Shown here in pieces: positions 50,946 to 58,932 of a DNA stretch of 64,000 bases (position 1 is its first letter; every line of letters starts with the position of its first letter). The notes beneath the pieces are model-generated. The model did not search any database and was not told the origin of the DNA. It was given only the letters and a program-made list of their open reading frames with translations. The translations under genes and the position numbers were made by a program. The DNA comes from Bacteroidales bacterium (lineage in GTDB: Bacteria; Bacteroidota; Bacteroidia; Bacteroidales; UBA10428). The stretch lies in contig JAFGSZ010000036.1 in NCBI GenBank assembly GCA_016934395.1, positions 1 to 64,000 of the forward strand, written 5' to 3'.

Positions 50946-52853
50946 CTATTCCATTATATCCAATCTATTGTTATCCGGAAATACATCAGGAATTGAACTG
51001 TTGCCAAGAACAATATATTGAATGGGTTTGGTATGTTGCATTTCTATTTCAACAGTTCTTGAATTTTCTTTCCATATTTCTGCCGATCTGTATAATATTT
51101 CCTCAGAATCATCATCAAGAACCACCTTTAAAGAAACAGGTACAGGTAATTTTCCTTTCTTTTCAATAACTAAAGTAATTATATCCTCTGTGAGGACTAC
51201 ATCTCCAATTGCCAGATCGGGAAAAGCAAATTCAAAAAACCAGGGATTCCAGAACCAGTTCAGGTTGTCTCCATATACTCTATCGAAAATATTAAACAGA
51301 TCATAAGGAAGCGGATGTTTTCCCTGCCAGGTATTTATAAAAAGTTGTAATGCTTCTTTAAATTTTTGTTCTCCCATTACATCCTGCAAAAATGTAAACG
51401 CCATGGAAGGACGATAATAGGAACTCATCCGCAACGCCGGATAATTTACCATAGCTGACTGGTTCATTGGAGGCATATCATATTCACTGCCGGCAAAATG
51501 TAAATAATTTGTTATTACATAATCCATATATTCCTGTTCCGGTGTAAAACGGTTAACTACACTGCGAGGTAAAAAAGTTGCCCACCCTTCATCCATCCAG
51601 GCATACTTCCTTTCGTTGATTCCGGTAATAAAAGGAAAATAGTTGTGTGCAATCTCATGAAATGTTAGTCCGACTGAACTACTTCGTTTTTGAGGCGCTC
51701 CATTATTGGCCATCATTGGAGATTCCATACCACCATCGCCTTTACCATTACAAAAGGTAGTAACATGTGGATACGGATAAGCCACACCGGGTAATTCAAA
51801 AGATAAATATTCAATAGTAGCTCTTGAAAAAAGAGCAACTTCATTATAATTTGGCGCGGTCTCGGGATAGATTGTTCCTGTTAGCGCTCTTCGTCCGGAA
51901 ACTGTATCTACTACAAGACTGACTGCATCCCATAAATAATGATTACTGGCAGCAAAGGTGAAATCAGATACATTATGGGCGATAAATTTCCAGGTATTTT
52001 TTTTATTCCCTTGATAAACAGGCCCGGAAGTATAATCATCTTTAGTAATAATGCGAACGACTTCATCCGATTTTTTAGTCTCCTGGTATCTATTGTAGAT
52101 ATCATTCCTGTATAACTTTTCGCCGTTTTGCAGTTCACCACAAGCCCATATCAGATAATCTTTAGGTACAGTTACTTCAACTTCATATTCAGAAAAATCG
52201 TTATAAAACTCTACTGCACCATAATATTCCGTAACATCCCATCCATCAATATCATCGTAAACGGATATTTGCGGATACCAATACGCAATAAAAAAATCAG
52301 TATCAGAATATTGTCCCATCCGGATATTTGAAGTTCTGGAAATTTTAAATTCCCATTCAACTTCTATTATCAGTTTTTCCGATGAATACAATGGTGATTC
52401 CAGCGTTATTGAAAGGTTTGTACTTGAACGAAAAAGATGGGTACCCCCCTCAATATCCACTGCACTTTTATTGACTTTAAGTGATTTGAGCTTTATCCCA
52501 TCTGTAATATCATTTGGCGAAACCGGAAATTGTCTTGGATTTCCTTTTTTCATCACATCCTGGTAAAGCCTTAATACGATTCGTGTCAGCGTATCCGGAC
52601 TTTCATTAAAATACTTGATTTTTGCTTTTCCCGCTAACATCCCGGTTGCAGGAAACAGTTCTGCCTGTATAAAATATTCAGACCGGTTTTGCCAATAATT
52701 ATCCCCCGGGATTCCTTCCGGCGACCTGGTTTTTGTTTCATATGCCTTTTGAATATTCAACGGTGTATAAAGATCTGTATCCTGGGATATACTGATGCTG
52801 AAATAAAAGAATATAAAAGTTATTGTCAGCCAATAAAATGGTTTTTTATTCAT
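50946..52853 (-). CDS. M1 family metallopeptidase
   Basis: A 635-residue secreted zinc aminopeptidase-like protein with a signal peptide ending near ISISQ. An N-terminal beta domain is followed by the thermolysin-like catalytic domain. The zinc motif is H399-E-I-A-H403, with the third ligand Glu422 in MDEGWATF, the exact HExxH-x18-E spacing of the family. The exopeptidase motif reads GGMES rather than the usual GxMEN, so aminopeptidase specificity may differ. It lies 91 bp before the GH95 gene on the same strand, without an evident terminator. Confidence 0.92.
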
Positions 52854-53064: not shown

Positions 53065-54576
53065 TTAATTATTCACTTTAAATATCACCGGGAATGTAAA
53101 TTGAACAGGGACATTTTTCCCCCGTTGTTTACCCGGTTTCCATTTTTGAGTATTTTTTATAGCATCTATTGCAGTATCGTTAAAAATATCATTACTTGAC
53201 CGTATAATTTTCAAATTCGTAATGTCCCCTTCCTCATTAACAATAAACTGCACAAATACCTTCCCTTCAATTTTTTTCAGCTTTGCTTCAGCAGGATATT
53301 CCAGATTATTTTGTACCTCAGCTATAAAAGCATTCTCGCCACCCGGATATTCCGGCATTTCTTCCACAATAAAGAAAAAATAAGTACTATCGGATTGGGT
53401 GACTTGCCGTGTTTCATCTATTGTTATTTCTGATTCAATGTTTTTTACGCTTTTATTTTTGCTATTAGTTTTATCTGGTTTTATCTCATATGATTTTAGC
53501 TGAAGAATTACTTCGAACATTTGCCCAATCTCCGGGGTAATAAAAAGGGTTTCATAGCCAACATATGAAAAAACAACCTCATCATTCTTTTTAATTTTCA
53601 ACGAAAAATTTCCATCTCGATCGGATACAGTTCCCTGGTAGGTATCTTTTATTACAATACTTGCTCCTTGGGCAGGCTGATTTTCTGCCAGAAAAACCCT
53701 GCCTGAAAGAGTACCTTCCTGACCATTGGTACCTGTTATAAATCCCAGGGTAAACAAAATGGCCGGAACCAGAATGATAACTTTGATCACCCCGGATTTC
53801 CATGACTTTTTTCTTTTCATCATTTCAAATCTGTTTTTAGTTAAAGAAAAATTAAACTGATTGCCCAACCGGAAAACCTGTACACCCAGTGTTTGGTTAA
53901 GTAGCTGGGCCTGATACTGAGCAGTATTTACTCCCGCTGAAAGTACTGAACGGTCAGCCAGTTGCTCATGATTTTCTCTAATCATCTTTGAAATAAGCCA
54001 TGAAAAAGGATTGAACCAGGTAAAAAGCAGTGTGAATTCCACCAGGATCAGGTCAATATAATGTAACTGTAAAATATGTGCTCTTTCGTGCAAAAGAATA
54101 GGATCGGTTTTTGTGATTTCCCTGAATTTATCCGGGAGAAAAATTTTTGAAAATAATGTAAATATTCCCTCATCTGCTGTAAAAGCTATTCCTGAATTTT
54201 TATTCCCCGAATTTTTCCAAACCCGCTTTAATCGTAATAAGAAAAAGAGATTCCTGCCAAATAAAATTAGAAAACCTGAAAAATACATTATTAGTAAAAC
54301 CAGTTGCCATGAGATATCTATGCTGTTTGTTTCAGGTACAGGGTTATTTATCAGAGCTAATGCCGGTTCGAGTTTTAATGCCGGAACTCCGGTATACATT
54401 ATTTCAGGCCTTTTAAATGCGAAAACAGCTAGCAGGAAAGAAATTAAAATCCCAAAGATCAAATAAATCCGCTTAAGCAGAAGATTATTGTCTTTCCTTA
54501 GGAGAAAAAAATAGGGTATAACAAATAGACTTATCCCCAGGCACACTTTTAAAAGGAAAATTAAATAACTATTCAT
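53065..54576 (-). CDS. M56 (BlaR1-like) peptidase with carboxypeptidase-regulatory and TonB C-terminal domains
   Basis: A 503-residue membrane signal protease. Four helices lie in the first 280 residues. The cytoplasmic zinc motif is H163-E-R-A-H167 in LLHERAHILQLHYIDL. After the last helix there is no penicillin-binding sensor; instead residues about 284-355 form a carboxypeptidase-regulatory-like beta domain (GTLSGRVFLAENQPAQGASI and following) and about 410-503 a TonB C-terminal domain (VFVQFIVNEEGDITNLKIIRSS). It overlaps the BlaI-type repressor gene by 8 bp and would cleave it on sensing an envelope signal. Confidence 0.9.
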   Translation of the reverse strand: MNSYLIFLLKVCLGISLFVIPYFFLLRKDNNLLLKRIYLIFGILISFLLAVFAFKRPEIMYTGVPALKLEPALALINNPVPETNSIDISWQLVLLIMYFSGFLILFGRNLFFLLRLKRVWKNSGNKNSGIAFTADEGIFTLFSKIFLPDKFREITKTDPILLHERAHILQLHYIDLILVEFTLLFTWFNPFSWLISKMIRENHEQLADRSVLSAGVNTAQYQAQLLNQTLGVQVFRLGNQFNFSLTKNRFEMMKRKKSWKSGVIKVIILVPAILFTLGFITGTNGQEGTLSGRVFLAENQPAQGASIVIKDTYQGTVSDRDGNFSLKIKKNDEVVFSYVGYETLFITPEIGQMFEVILQLKSYEIKPDKTNSKNKSVKNIESEITIDETRQVTQSDSTYFFFIVEEMPEYPGGENAFIAEVQNNLEYPAEAKLKKIEGKVFVQFIVNEEGDITNLKIIRSSNDIFNDTAIDAIKNTQKWKPGKQRGKNVPVQFTFPVIFKVNN

Positions 54577-54949
54577 TGTCAGAATTTTGATTCAGATCCT
54601 TTTCAAGGTTAGAAATAATTTCTTTAAGCTCTGCCAGATCCATTTTACTCTCAAGGGCAAAAAAGCTTGCCATGCTATGAAATGATCCGTTAAAATAATT
54701 TGTAACAAAATTTTTAAGCTGAAAACGCGAATATTCCTTTTTCTGGATCAACGGATAATAGATATGGGTGGTGCCTACAGCACGATGTGTAATAAAACCT
54801 TTCTTTTCCAAAACTCTTATCACCGTAGAAACAGTGGTATAAGGGGTTTCAGGTTCTTCGAGTTGTGCCATTACATCCCGCACCACTGCTTCTTTCAGTC
54901 GCCATAGGATGAGCATAATTTCTTCTTCTGCTTTTGTTAATCGTTTCAT
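54569..54949 (-). CDS. BlaI/MecI/CopY-family repressor
   Basis: A 126-residue winged-helix transcriptional repressor. The helix-turn-helix is in the N-terminal half: LTKAEEEIMLILWRLKEAVVRDVM, then PYTTVSTVIRVLEKKGFI, the recognition helix and wing. The C-terminal half is helical, for dimerisation. By family logic it represses its own operon until cleaved by the co-encoded M56 protease. Candidate operators lie upstream at 54964-55040. The first gene of the pair overlaps the second by 8 bp. Confidence 0.93.
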   Translation of the reverse strand: MKRLTKAEEEIMLILWRLKEAVVRDVMAQLEEPETPYTTVSTVIRVLEKKGFITHRAVGTTHIYYPLIQKKEYSRFQLKNFVTNYFNGSFHSMASFFALESKMDLAELKEIISNLEKDLNQNSDNE

Positions 54950-55227: not shown

Positions 55228-58086
55228 ATGTTTCGAAGGATAATTTTTATACTTTATATCTTATTGTTTTTTATCTGTTCAGCAATTGGTCAATTTTATG
55301 AAACGGGCCAGGATCCTTCTACGATAAAATGGGAACAAATAAAGACTCCTCATTTTAAAGTAGTATTCCCAAAAAGTTTTTACGACGAAGCAAACCGGTA
55401 CGCCAACATTCTTGAAAATTCTCAAAGTTATTCTGCTCAAGGTTTAAATGTTCAACCCCGGAAAATTCCGGTATTACTACATAATCAGTCCATACTTTCA
55501 AATGGATTTGTTTCCTGGGCCCCAAAACGAATGGAACTTGTTACTGCTCCTCCACAGGAAACCTACCCACACGACTGGTTTGAACAACTTGCCCTGCATG
55601 AATACCGACATGTGGTTCAGGTTAGTAAATTAAACCAGGGCATTACAAAATTTTTCAGCTTTCCATTCGGGCAAATGGCTACCGGAGCATCCGTCGGATT
55701 TCTGCCACTTTGGTTTCTCGAAGGTGATGCCGTACTAAACGAAACCCAGCTTTCCAATTCCGGCAGGGGAAGAGTACCGGCGTTCGAAATGGAATTAAGA
55801 GCTATCAACCTTGAAAAATCAGAAAGATATTCTTATGATAAAGCCTATCTGGGTTCCTATAAGGATCATATTCCAAATCACTATCAGTTAGGATATCAGA
55901 TGGTAGCCTATTCCAATTTAAAGTATGGAGATCATTTCTGGGAAAATATATTAGATAATGTTGCAAAAAAGCCATACACCTTTGCTCCCTTTTATTTTGG
56001 GTTAAAAAAAGAAAAAAACCTGTCGAAAGTTACATTGTACAATGAAGCTTTCGACTCTCTTACATATATGTGGAATAATAGTTTAGACACCATTAATGTT
56101 ACAAAAACTATAAATAGAAAAAAACCCAACACAGAATCCTTTACAAGTTATCGTTATCCAAAATATTATAAGAAACATTCGATAATTCTTGAGAAATCGG
56201 GGATTGACCAGCTTACAGAATTTGTAGTTATTGACAGCCTGGGGAAAGAAAGCAAATTATTTACACCCGGATATATTAATTATGATAATATATCGCTGGG
56301 AGGAGATTTATTAACCTGGACAGAATATATCCCCGATTCAAGATGGGGACAGCAGAATTTTTCTGTAATTAAATTACTAAATCTGAAAACCCTAAAAGAA
56401 AAACAATTAACATACAGGTCCCGGTATTTTTCACCGGCAATCAATAAAAACGGAAACAAACTTGTATGTATTGAAACGGATACCTTAAACAAATATTCTC
56501 TGGTATTTCTTGACATAAATACCGGAAAACCGATTTTTAAAACAAATTCTCCGGATAATGTATATATATCCCAACCTTACTGGCATAATGATGATTTAAT
56601 TGTTATGTTATCACTAAACCATGATGGTGAAAGCATAATAAGTTATCATCCGTCATCCGGTGAATGGAATATAATTCTTTCTCCTTCTTTCACTGACATT
56701 TCTCAACCTATAAACTGGAACGATTATATTCTTTACAGGGCATCTTATTCCGGAATCGAAAATCTCTATGCCCTTCATATTCCTACGAAAAAAAGATACC
56801 AGATTACCTCATCAGTTTTTGGCGCTTTTGATCCCGCAACAAATCAAAATGGACAAATGCTTGCCTATTCCGATTATACCTTAAACGGTTATAGACTTTC
56901 TGAAATTTATCTTGATACCACCAGCTGGATTCCGTTCGAAAATGTAAAATCTCTCACTCCAGGCTGGGCAGAAAAATTATCCGAAAAACAAAATTTTAAT
57001 ATACAAAAAGATACACTCACAATAAAAAAATACAAATCACACACGTATAGCAGAATAGGAAATCTTTTCAATTTCCATAGCTGGGCGCCATTTTATGCCG
57101 ATTACGAAAACTTTAAATTTTCTGATCAGTCAATTTCTCCCGGCTTTTTATTGTTTTCACAAAACCTGTTGGGAACTGCCATTTCAACATTAGGATATTC
57201 TTATCGAAACGGTGAACATTATATTCACCCTCGATTTATCTACAAAGGCTTTTATCCGGTAATTGAAGTTTCTGCGGATATAGGGGGAACTCCGGATATT
57301 TATAAGCCACTGGATTTAGAATTGTTACCGCAAAAAATCGCTACATCCAGAAAATATTTTATAACCACCTATATTCCTTTAAATTTTACATTTAATAAAT
57401 ACAACAATTATATTGAACCACAGCTTGATATTGAATTTAATAACTCAATATACTATGATAAAGGATTTCAGCAGAATCTTGTTTTTGTTCACTTGAGTTT
57501 GTATTATCATAGATATCTTAAACTATCCTATAGAGATATTATCCCAAAATGGGGACAGTTTTTTTATTTTACATATACAACTTCTCCAACAGAAGATAAA
57601 TATTTAGGATCACTATTTTCAGGGTATTCTCTTTTTACTTTCCCGGGATTCTTTAAACATCACGGATTTCAACTAACCGGGGGTATGCAAATTCAGCATC
57701 CAAAATATTTTCTTTATGGTATCAGTCGTATTGCATTCCCAAAGGGTTATGATAATTATACTACCGAAAAAATATATAAAACCACTGCAGAATATACATT
57801 CCCGGTTTTTTATCCTGATCTGTCCATAGGCCCCCTTGCTTATATCAAAAGAATCCGTTCAACGCTATTTGCCGATTATGTTTTTGGAAAACATATCTAT
57901 GGTAAACCCGGGATACCCAGAGGATCATCTGCATCATTTTATTCCTATGGACTTGAATTATTATCAGATACTCATTTTATGCGGTTTATTTTTCCTGTTT
58001 CCATTGGAATGAGGTTTTCGTTTCTGCCCAAAGAAAATAATTTTGTCCCTGAATTGTTATTCAGCATTAATACCAGTGTGTTATAA
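55228..58086 (+). CDS. Secreted protein: gluzincin-like domain, beta-propeller and C-terminal barrel
   Basis: A 952-residue protein with a signal peptide ending near CSAIGQ. Residues about 25-270 carry a zinc-peptidase signature, H124-E-Y-R-H128 with Glu165 in LWFLEGDAV, as in clan MA gluzincins. Residues about 310-600 look like a TolB/DPP-IV-type propeller (repeats such as SRYFSPAINKNGNKLVCIE and GAFDPATNQNGQMLAYSDY). The C-terminal 300 residues are rich in alternating aromatic strands typical of an outer-membrane barrel (HYIHPRFIYKGFYPVIEVSA; FVHLSLYYHRYLKLSYRD). It may be a surface protease or an assembly factor. It is often annotated only as a hypothetical or TolB-like protein. Confidence 0.75.
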   Translation: MFRRIIFILYILLFFICSAIGQFYETGQDPSTIKWEQIKTPHFKVVFPKSFYDEANRYANILENSQSYSAQGLNVQPRKIPVLLHNQSILSNGFVSWAPKRMELVTAPPQETYPHDWFEQLALHEYRHVVQVSKLNQGITKFFSFPFGQMATGASVGFLPLWFLEGDAVLNETQLSNSGRGRVPAFEMELRAINLEKSERYSYDKAYLGSYKDHIPNHYQLGYQMVAYSNLKYGDHFWENILDNVAKKPYTFAPFYFGLKKEKNLSKVTLYNEAFDSLTYMWNNSLDTINVTKTINRKKPNTESFTSYRYPKYYKKHSIILEKSGIDQLTEFVVIDSLGKESKLFTPGYINYDNISLGGDLLTWTEYIPDSRWGQQNFSVIKLLNLKTLKEKQLTYRSRYFSPAINKNGNKLVCIETDTLNKYSLVFLDINTGKPIFKTNSPDNVYISQPYWHNDDLIVMLSLNHDGESIISYHPSSGEWNIILSPSFTDISQPINWNDYILYRASYSGIENLYALHIPTKKRYQITSSVFGAFDPATNQNGQMLAYSDYTLNGYRLSEIYLDTTSWIPFENVKSLTPGWAEKLSEKQNFNIQKDTLTIKKYKSHTYSRIGNLFNFHSWAPFYADYENFKFSDQSISPGFLLFSQNLLGTAISTLGYSYRNGEHYIHPRFIYKGFYPVIEVSADIGGTPDIYKPLDLELLPQKIATSRKYFITTYIPLNFTFNKYNNYIEPQLDIEFNNSIYYDKGFQQNLVFVHLSLYYHRYLKLSYRDIIPKWGQFFYFTYTTSPTEDKYLGSLFSGYSLFTFPGFFKHHGFQLTGGMQIQHPKYFLYGISRIAFPKGYDNYTTEKIYKTTAEYTFPVFYPDLSIGPLAYIKRIRSTLFADYVFGKHIYGKPGIPRGSSASFYSYGLELLSDTHFMRFIFPVSIGMRFSFLPKENNFVPELLFSINTSVL

Positions 58087-58206
58087 TAGCCCCCTTCTAA
58101 ATTTCACCCAACTGTTTCCTTGAAAATTTCCGTAAATTTTTGTAAATTGTAAGAAGTCATTAATGTTTTTTTCTGCTCCTTGATTTTTAACTTAAATTTC
58201 ATTGTC

Positions 58207-58932
58207 ATGGAAACAAATCAAATTATTGAAACCATTGGCAGCGTTACAAAAAAAGAGCATCTTCACAGTATTTCATATAACGTATTGCCAGATACCATGG
58301 TACTTGAAAATACCAATCCTTTTCCGGGATATGGTTATCAGGTAGAGAATATTCCTTCAGATCTTAAGCCCCGTTCAATTTTTTTAATACTCAGGTACCG
58401 CTATGCCCCTGAGAAAATTGCACGGATAACCCAAAGTTTAATTAACCAAAACCAGTTGAAGTGTTATGCAGCATATGGAGAAATTCAAATAAGAGGAGCC
58501 ATATATCCGTGTATACGTGTAAAAAAACTGGATTGCTTTGAAATGATTCCGAAAGTTCAGCAATACTATAAGCAGAATGAAATTAAACTTATGGGATTTA
58601 AATTTATTGATGATGAGGGTCAGATAACCATTCATAAAGTATTAAAAATTATTGAGATATCTGATGGTATTTACAGAGATTTATTTGATAAAGAAAAATT
58701 CTATATTAAAATAGACAAACAGTTGAACTGGAAATCTTTTGATTCAATAGGTAAAATGGTTAAAAATAACCTGGCGAATAACAATTTTGATGCTGCCCTT
58801 GGTTTAATTTACAGATTTAACGGACCAGAAGATGTGGTTAGAATTTACGATAAGAATACAACACTTAAAAGAGCATTGGAGCTGAAAAAAGAATTTTTTA
58901 AAGCTGTAAAAAAAGAATTTATTATGGTTTAG
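58207..58932 (+). CDS. Conserved-looking protein of unknown function
   Basis: A 241-residue soluble protein, taken from the ATG at 58207 (METNQIIETIGSV) rather than an upstream frame extension to 58180. No signal peptide or helix is seen. The first half has a compact alpha/beta pattern with SIFLILRYRYAPEKIARITQSL and ECIRVKKLDCFEMI-like strands (the exact segment is IYPCIRVKKLDCFEMIPKVQ). The tail is helical and lysine-rich. I do not recognise the family. Its stop faces the U32 gene stop with 1 bp between. Composition is like that of its neighbours, so it is not obviously acquired. Confidence 0.65.
   Translation: METNQIIETIGSVTKKEHLHSISYNVLPDTMVLENTNPFPGYGYQVENIPSDLKPRSIFLILRYRYAPEKIARITQSLINQNQLKCYAAYGEIQIRGAIYPCIRVKKLDCFEMIPKVQQYYKQNEIKLMGFKFIDDEGQITIHKVLKIIEISDGIYRDLFDKEKFYIKIDKQLNWKSFDSIGKMVKNNLANNNFDAALGLIYRFNGPEDVVRIYDKNTTLKRALELKKEFFKAVKKEFIMV

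Follow-up and report, generated by a model that had tools for sequence, protein, structure and literature searches.

The 64,000-nucleotide stretch of DNA analysed here (the window; positions 1 to 64,000 of contig JAFGSZ010000036.1, GenBank assembly GCA_016934395.1, from a Bacteroidales bacterium) carries on its forward strand an open reading frame with an ATG start codon (55228–58086), which encodes a protein of 952 amino acids followed by a stop codon. The protein consists of a putative signal peptide, a gluzincin-type peptidase domain, a TolB-like beta-propeller and a barrel of 16 strands that is likely of the Omp85 type. A first-pass annotation made from the sequence alone had listed a signal peptide, HEYRH at residues 124–128, E165 within WFLEGDA and, further along, propeller-like repeats and barrel-like strands; these features were confirmed, the motifs at the very places given. 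The order of the domains, as computed here, and the fold classes of the peptidase and the propeller can be given with high confidence. The full-length AlphaFold2 model reached a predicted local distance difference test score (pLDDT) of 87.9 and a predicted template modelling score (pTM) of 0.86. No Pfam or NCBIfam model and no PDB sequence matched the window protein at E-values up to 1.

Homologue Sampling

The genome to which the window belongs gave one match to the window protein, and among 60 genomes (own included) 42 were matched, a few of them in part, e.g., by the propeller only in G033 and by the barrel only in G017. The close family, aligned as A1, comprises 31 sequences, i.e., the window protein and 30 loci from the genome searches, which share 27–56% identity with it; L025, in which a run of N is followed by unrelated sequence, and L017, which is extended at its N-terminus, were trimmed for this alignment. 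Beyond A1, 29 loci (L033–L061), mostly from the same class, and 20 distant loci were added, the latter picked by hand among the matches listed so as to span families, the remaining loci being best matches. The distant alignment A2 contains the window protein and the 20 distant relatives (17–23% identity), A3 covers the peptidase domain of 51 sequences (17–60% identity to the window protein), and the barrel profile A4 was built from A1 minus five incomplete rows (L016, L017, L019, L025, L027). In a profile search across the phylum, 277 of 296 genomes, including that of the window, were matched, many of them via the propeller alone. The peptidase-domain profile matched 190 of these 296 genomes, own included, in a count of profile matches that leaves the HExxH/EGxA motif aside; among the matches listed, the open frames mostly span about 930–1160 residues.

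The Zinc Site and the Peptidase Fold

The hydrophobic N-terminus of the window protein (residues 1–21, 55228–55290) ends in ...CSAIGQ and resembles a signal peptide when judged by eye, with cleavage before Q22, a residue conserved in all 30 close-family rows that have a letter at that position; the model places a helix of low confidence at residues 2–15. The peptidase domain follows at residues 22–288 (55291–56091). Its HExxH motif (residues 124–128, 55597–55611), with H124, E125 and H128, is present in 31 of 31 close-family rows. HExxH followed by EGxA within 90 residues was found in 80 of 80 non-identical sequences, the window protein included, down to 17–23% identity, in a sample whose loci were all found with a motif-containing query or profile, so that zinc-less members are under-sampled by design. 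On this ground a chance motif is rejected. E165, G166 and A168 of the WFLEGDA stretch (residues 162–168, 55711–55731) are invariant in A1, A2 and A3, and E165 is the likely third zinc ligand. A2 has 15 invariant columns, among them H124, E125, H128, E165, G166 and A168, and the same six residues belong to the 11 invariant positions out of 279 in A3. In the model, HExxH lies inside a helix (residues 117–135) and E165 inside a second one (residues 161–175). Two further conserved elements were seen in the domain. The GRGR stretch (residues 179–182, 55762–55773) is kept in 31/31, 31/31, 31/31 and 29/31 close-family rows at its four positions, and Tyr219 (55882–55884) is invariant in A1, A2 and A3. 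Gluzincins such as M1 and M30 enzymes use a transition-state tyrosine, and Tyr219 may be a candidate for such a residue.

When folded alone (residues 22–300), the peptidase domain gave a pLDDT of 92.4 and a pTM of 0.89. A Foldseek search with this model returned nine matches at E ≤ 0.001, namely seven collagenase chains, one protein of the aminopeptidase N family and one M61 enzyme, so that every match of the predicted domain at this threshold is a gluzincin-type peptidase. In the VIA comparison the best match was the M30 protein lugdulysin (Z 14.3, root mean square deviation (rmsd) 6.2, 234 residues aligned), followed by a collagenase (Z 14.0, rmsd 3.4, 213 aligned) and an M1-type aminopeptidase (Z 12.9, rmsd 5.0, 234 aligned). 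The family numbers M1, M9, M30 and M61 used for these matches are in part those given in the entry titles and in part those we take to apply. The predicted model is thus consistent with a gluzincin fold, at middling Z-scores. No match of the window protein to the Pfam family Peptidase_MA_2 (PF13485) was found. This family matches 9 of 21 A2 members at E ≤ 0.05, and when ten domains were rescanned, seven exceeded the cut-off, two stayed below it and one had no match; the ten had been chosen with the earlier A2 matches in view, nine being of the HEFTH, HEYTH or HEFVH type and one of another. Peptidase_MA_2 and the gluzincin families M1, M9, M30 and M61 thus share with the window protein the HExxH and EGxA motifs, a similar fold according to the model and, in some distant relatives, a Pfam match. 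The earlier proposal of a gluzincin-type peptidase is borne out by the model matches and the unvarying zinc residues, and homologues varying at the zinc ligands, named beforehand as the finding that would speak against it, did not turn up among the 80 sequences. We consider it quite probable that the domain is an active zinc peptidase.

The Propeller and the Barrel

The TolB-like propeller (about residues 289–569, 56092–56934) matches TolB chains in VIA with Z 22–23 and an rmsd of 2.8–3.0 over about 240 residues, with other propellers close behind (Z 21.4 and below), and the A1 profile matches TolB at E 1.5e-16. The propeller fold is therefore common to TolB and the window protein on the strength of both a Z of 23 and a profile match. 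TolB itself is a periplasmic component of the Tol-Pal system that binds Pal and is not known to have a barrel or a peptidase domain. Fold searches with the whole model were dominated by the propeller, and the assessment of the barrel draws on its number of strands, its motif and profile comparisons; the lack of an Omp85 chain among the whole-model matches listed is uninformative on the barrel, as the propeller fills that list.

The barrel comprises 16 strands of 8 or more residues in the AlphaFold2 strand list, two 3-residue strands being left aside, and spans residues 616–947 (57073–58068). The barrel-like stretch noticed earlier is thus real and slightly longer (about 330 residues) than the 300 or so first estimated. 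Strands 11 and 12 are joined by a long loop (residues 825–847, 57700–57768) at the place of loop L6 of Omp85 proteins; it holds the sequence PKGY (residues 838–841, 57739–57750), which may be compared with the VRGF/Y motif of the BamA loop L6. Among the 27 close-family rows with letters at this position, RG occurs in 22 and RG[YF] in 17. The BamA of F. johnsoniae carries LRGY in its L6 loop as a form of the VRGF/Y motif (PMC12611786).

The kinship of the barrel to Omp85 proteins was traced through profile comparisons. The barrel profiles of the close and the distant family match each other over 329 columns (probability 99.5, E 3.4e-23), and the distant-family profile matches that of BamA over 109 columns (probability 89.8, E 1.7e-6), the BamA comparison set consisting of 18 proteins that all match TIGR03303. 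The score of the latter comparison (54.1) stands well apart from the best of 200 column shuffles (23.3) and from the reversed distant profile (11.7). Against TonB-receptor barrels, used as a control, the family profiles gave probabilities of 0.1–0.2, BamA 0.6 and the profile of zinc-less relatives, described below, 0.7; the zinc-less barrel profile reached 35.0 against BamA, 76.5 against the distant family and 0.1 against the close one. This transitive chain with its controls, together with the motif at the place of L6 and the zinc-less relatives over the Pfam Omp85 cut-off, makes an Omp85-type barrel likely by way of a chain of relatives, not by a direct match. No POTRA match was obtained in the Pfam scans of the window protein or of A1 or A2 members. 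POTRA domains are named as characteristic of the Omp85 superfamily (PMC11116518) and are found in seven of ten Omp85 families (PMC11014939), and subfamilies of non-POTRA type have been described as well (PMC4104836).

Zinc-Less Relatives

A Pfam Omp85 search of 25 genomes revealed, in three of them, proteins of 1101–1115 residues that exceed the cut-off by a small margin; a fourth genome has a fragment of such a protein (G031:C383). The three proteins (L114, L115 and L116) score 29.0, 26.2 and 25.5 against a cut-off of 24 bits and have the same build as the window protein (A2 profile, E 1.8e-25 to 8e-21) but lack HExxH. Their peptidase region is weakly recognised by the A3 profile (E 2.6e-5 for L114 and 0.0023 for L116; no match under E 1 for L115). 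The genome of the window carries such a relative outside the window (L117, L128; G000:C131:145764–149039, 1092 amino acids), in which LINELLYG and WYIKGL replace HExxH and EGxA; this copy is not among the three Pfam Omp85 matches of its genome. Across the zinc-less group, own copy included, HExxH is found in 0 of 30 sequences and RGF near the end in 30 of 30. In a tree of 63 sequences (17 close, 11 class-level, 20 distant and 15 of the 30 zinc-less ones) the zinc-less sequences form one clade with a support of 1.0 on a long branch, the root being unknown, and a single loss of the zinc site is likely on this ground. Within the family of genomes to which the window belongs, the zinc-less protein is 57–68% identical over nearly its full length, and the intact protein mostly 28–43%.

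Over the same 60 genomes, some of them incomplete, both proteins occur in 32, the intact one only in 10, the zinc-less one only in 9 and neither in 9, with six weak matches not counted as orthologues of the zinc-less protein. The corresponding Fisher p of 0.07 indicates no clear linkage of the two. The relative encoded in the genome of the window is a candidate pseudoenzyme partner of the intact protein.

Relation to Known Systems

Heinz and Lithgow (2014, PMC4104836) delineated ten Omp85/TpsB subfamilies; among these are WD40-Omp85, whose members have a TolB-like propeller, and 'Metallo'. Omp85 subfamilies of this kind are called not well characterized (PMC11116518). WD40-Omp85 is the nearest described kind, as it too has a TolB-like propeller before an Omp85-type barrel, an assignment that for the window barrel is likely but lacks a direct match; it was suggested to resemble a fusion of BamA and BamB, and the accessible part of its description does not mention a zinc-peptidase domain before the propeller, such as is present here (PMC4104836). 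The 'Metallo' Omp85 proteins are described as a metalloprotease fused to an Omp85 barrel, are defined by PF00149 and have no propeller in that part of the account (PMC4104836). PF00149 is absent from the Pfam matches of the 31 A1 members (E ≤ 0.1) and the 21 A2 members (E ≤ 0.05). The window protein is therefore not a member of the 'Metallo' group. PF00149 is, as we take it, the calcineurin-like metallophosphatase family.

PlpD, the fusion of this kind that has been studied, likewise has an enzyme domain before an Omp85 barrel, and this domain was found by experiment to be periplasmic, in contrast to an earlier surface model; PlpD combines a patatin-like lipase domain with one POTRA, and no propeller is described for it in the part of the source seen, whereas the window protein combines a peptidase with a propeller (PMC11116518). 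BepA, YcaL and LoiP are M48 zinc metalloproteases linked to the biogenesis of outer-membrane proteins (PMC13067283, PMC8423444). Their likeness to the window protein is an analogy of job. To our knowledge, all three are separate proteins without a propeller or a barrel. It had been supposed that no characterised protein shows this order of domains; a search of open-licence PMC papers indeed found none describing a peptidase–propeller–barrel protein, an absence that carries little weight, and the supposition needs the qualification that the WD40-Omp85 subfamily had already been named.

Interpretation and Alternatives

We hold it probable that the window gene encodes an outer-membrane protein composed of an N-terminal gluzincin zinc peptidase, a TolB-like propeller and an Omp85-type barrel of 16 strands; the peptidase would be periplasmic and may act on envelope proteins. 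After export, the barrel would insert into the outer membrane, and the propeller and the peptidase would hang on its periplasmic side, a location that by analogy with the superfamily has a high probability. We infer that H124, H128 and E165 bind zinc; E125 would then activate a water molecule, with the intermediate perhaps stabilised by the invariant Tyr219. The propeller would most likely position a partner or the substrate, and the peptidase would trim or remove envelope proteins at the outer membrane. Such a job would be comparable, not by descent, to that of the periplasmic metallopeptidase BepA beside BAM in E. coli. By this analogy, the trimming or clearing of outer-membrane or envelope proteins is offered as a possible, tentative function.

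Several observations weigh against this interpretation. The VIA Z-scores of 12–14 for the peptidase domain lie in a range that, according to the program itself, possibly means only a common arrangement in helical models, even if the matches listed nonetheless fall in one peptidase group by title and family. In the relatives recognised by Peptidase_MA_2 the matched stretch begins behind HExxH. The gene neighbourhood, surveyed mostly over 1.5 kb, is uninformative, with the most frequent neighbour clusters present in 9 of 80 loci. For the barrel of the window protein there is no Pfam or NCBIfam match at E ≤ 10, and at the place of the L6 motif the window protein carries a K (PKGY) and the 20 distant rows are mixed. 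The Omp85, BamA and TamL matches of the distant relatives L070, L071, L075 and L077 all stay below the cut-offs, in a scan whose noise level can be read from L065, which hit an unrelated family at E 0.0047. The comparison of the close-family barrel profile with BamA fails (probability 2.3, 18 columns), that of the whole-family profile is weak (probability 39.4), and A4, used as a plain hidden Markov model, missed all Omp85 and zinc-less proteins at E < 1. The missing direct match, the failed close-family comparison and the empty model search speak for a 16-strand barrel unrelated to Omp85, e.g., a porin-like one, in which the RGY-like motif is coincidental. Such a barrel seems unlikely in view of the transitive profile chain with its controls, the position of the motif in the expected loop, and the zinc-less relatives that pass the Pfam Omp85 cut-off. 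An assembly factor in the first place, whose propeller and barrel fold or insert outer-membrane proteins and whose peptidase merely releases or clips the client, would accord with the relation of the barrel to BamA through relatives and with the BamA–BamB-like fusion suggested for WD40-Omp85 (PMC4104836). We rate it as having a rather small chance, as no POTRA match was found and three Pfam Omp85 proteins elsewhere in the genome (frames of 839, 790 and 488 amino acids), the first with a BamA-type barrel, suggest that the general task is covered.

The first-pass annotation had spoken of a self-anchored surface protease. Anchoring by the protein's own barrel agrees with our analysis, but the surface location is probably wrong, since the barrel is best explained as Omp85-type and the N-terminal domains in that superfamily are periplasmic. 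For the peptidase to act on proteins outside, the barrel would have to export the domains in front of it across the outer membrane, a stretch of about 550 residues that the model shows as mostly folded. If the barrel is Omp85-like, strand 1 also begins on the periplasmic side, given that the number of strands is even and given the position of the L6-like motif, and the PlpD domain, once assigned to the surface, was later found to stay periplasmic (PMC11116518). In favour of the surface, a large related gene of the same orientation lies beside seven distant relatives, and of three such genes scanned, two have the secretion sorting domain Por_Secre_tail over the cut-off and one below it; on balance we regard a surface protease as quite improbable. 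The earlier alternative of an inactivated peptidase, in which the fold binds partners and the motif is purely structural, draws on the zinc-less relative of the same build in the genome of the window (L117) and on the absence of HExxH from its whole group, which imply that the build can exist without zinc. This reading may suit that relative, but it does not fit the window protein, in which all four residues H, E, H and E belong to the set kept in 80 of 80 sequences; among them is the presumed catalytic residue Glu125, for which a metal site of structural role alone would have no need. For the window protein a dead scaffold is therefore very improbable.

Should an active periplasmic peptidase indeed be tied to an Omp85-type barrel, the protein would be a candidate for the quality control or maturation of proteins at the outer membrane in these bacteria, and the little-studied WD40-Omp85 group would gain a testable catalytic function. 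The conserved active site seems to have been overlooked so far. The peptidase profile is met in 190 out of the 296 genomes sampled across the phylum, yet no Pfam or NCBIfam model matches the window protein. The occurrence of an intact and a zinc-less protein in one genome also offers a natural comparison. It is a speculative and rather doubtful extension that these proteins form an old, widespread class of the phylum, in which an Omp85-type barrel with its own periplasmic propeller and zinc peptidase would serve as a single-chain machine for the quality control or maturation of outer-membrane proteins or surface lipoproteins, in many genomes paired with a zinc-less sister as enzyme and pseudoenzyme regulator.

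Neighbouring Genes and Other Loci

An open reading frame directly downstream of the peptidase–propeller–barrel gene (58180–58932, forward strand, possible ATG at 58207, about 240 amino acids) is kept in the loci of six relatives (L005, L006, L007, L012, L013 and L015), and no Pfam domain over the cut-off was found in it. Upstream, on the reverse strand at 53065–54949, lie a gene for a BlaR1/M56-type sensor fused to carboxypeptidase-regulatory-like and TonB C-terminal domains and, overlapping its start, a BlaI-type repressor gene. Neither gene turned up in the flanking sequence, mostly 1.5 kb, of the other loci (61 in all). The BlaR1-like gene adjoins a gene for an M1-type peptidase (50946–52853, reverse strand; PF01433 over the cut-off) with a FHEIAHNYF stretch of its own. 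Compared with this single M1-type sequence, the peptidase profile aligned 10 columns at a probability of 0.5, and because of this no kinship to M1 by profile is claimed.

In seven of the nine distant relatives of the HEFTH, HEFVH or HEYTH type (L068, L069, L070, L071, L076, L077 and L078), the large related gene lies upstream in the same orientation. Outside the class, the genomes G222, G120 and G128 each gave two matches to the peptidase profile, in frames of about 980–1010 and about 1120 residues; of these paired matches, the motif was looked at in one, L077. The locus L017 (1–3426, reverse strand) holds a stop-free open frame in which an apparent pseudouridine synthase, recognised by eye, runs into the peptidase–propeller–barrel protein, and this joined frame may reflect a fusion, a missing stop or an assembly error.

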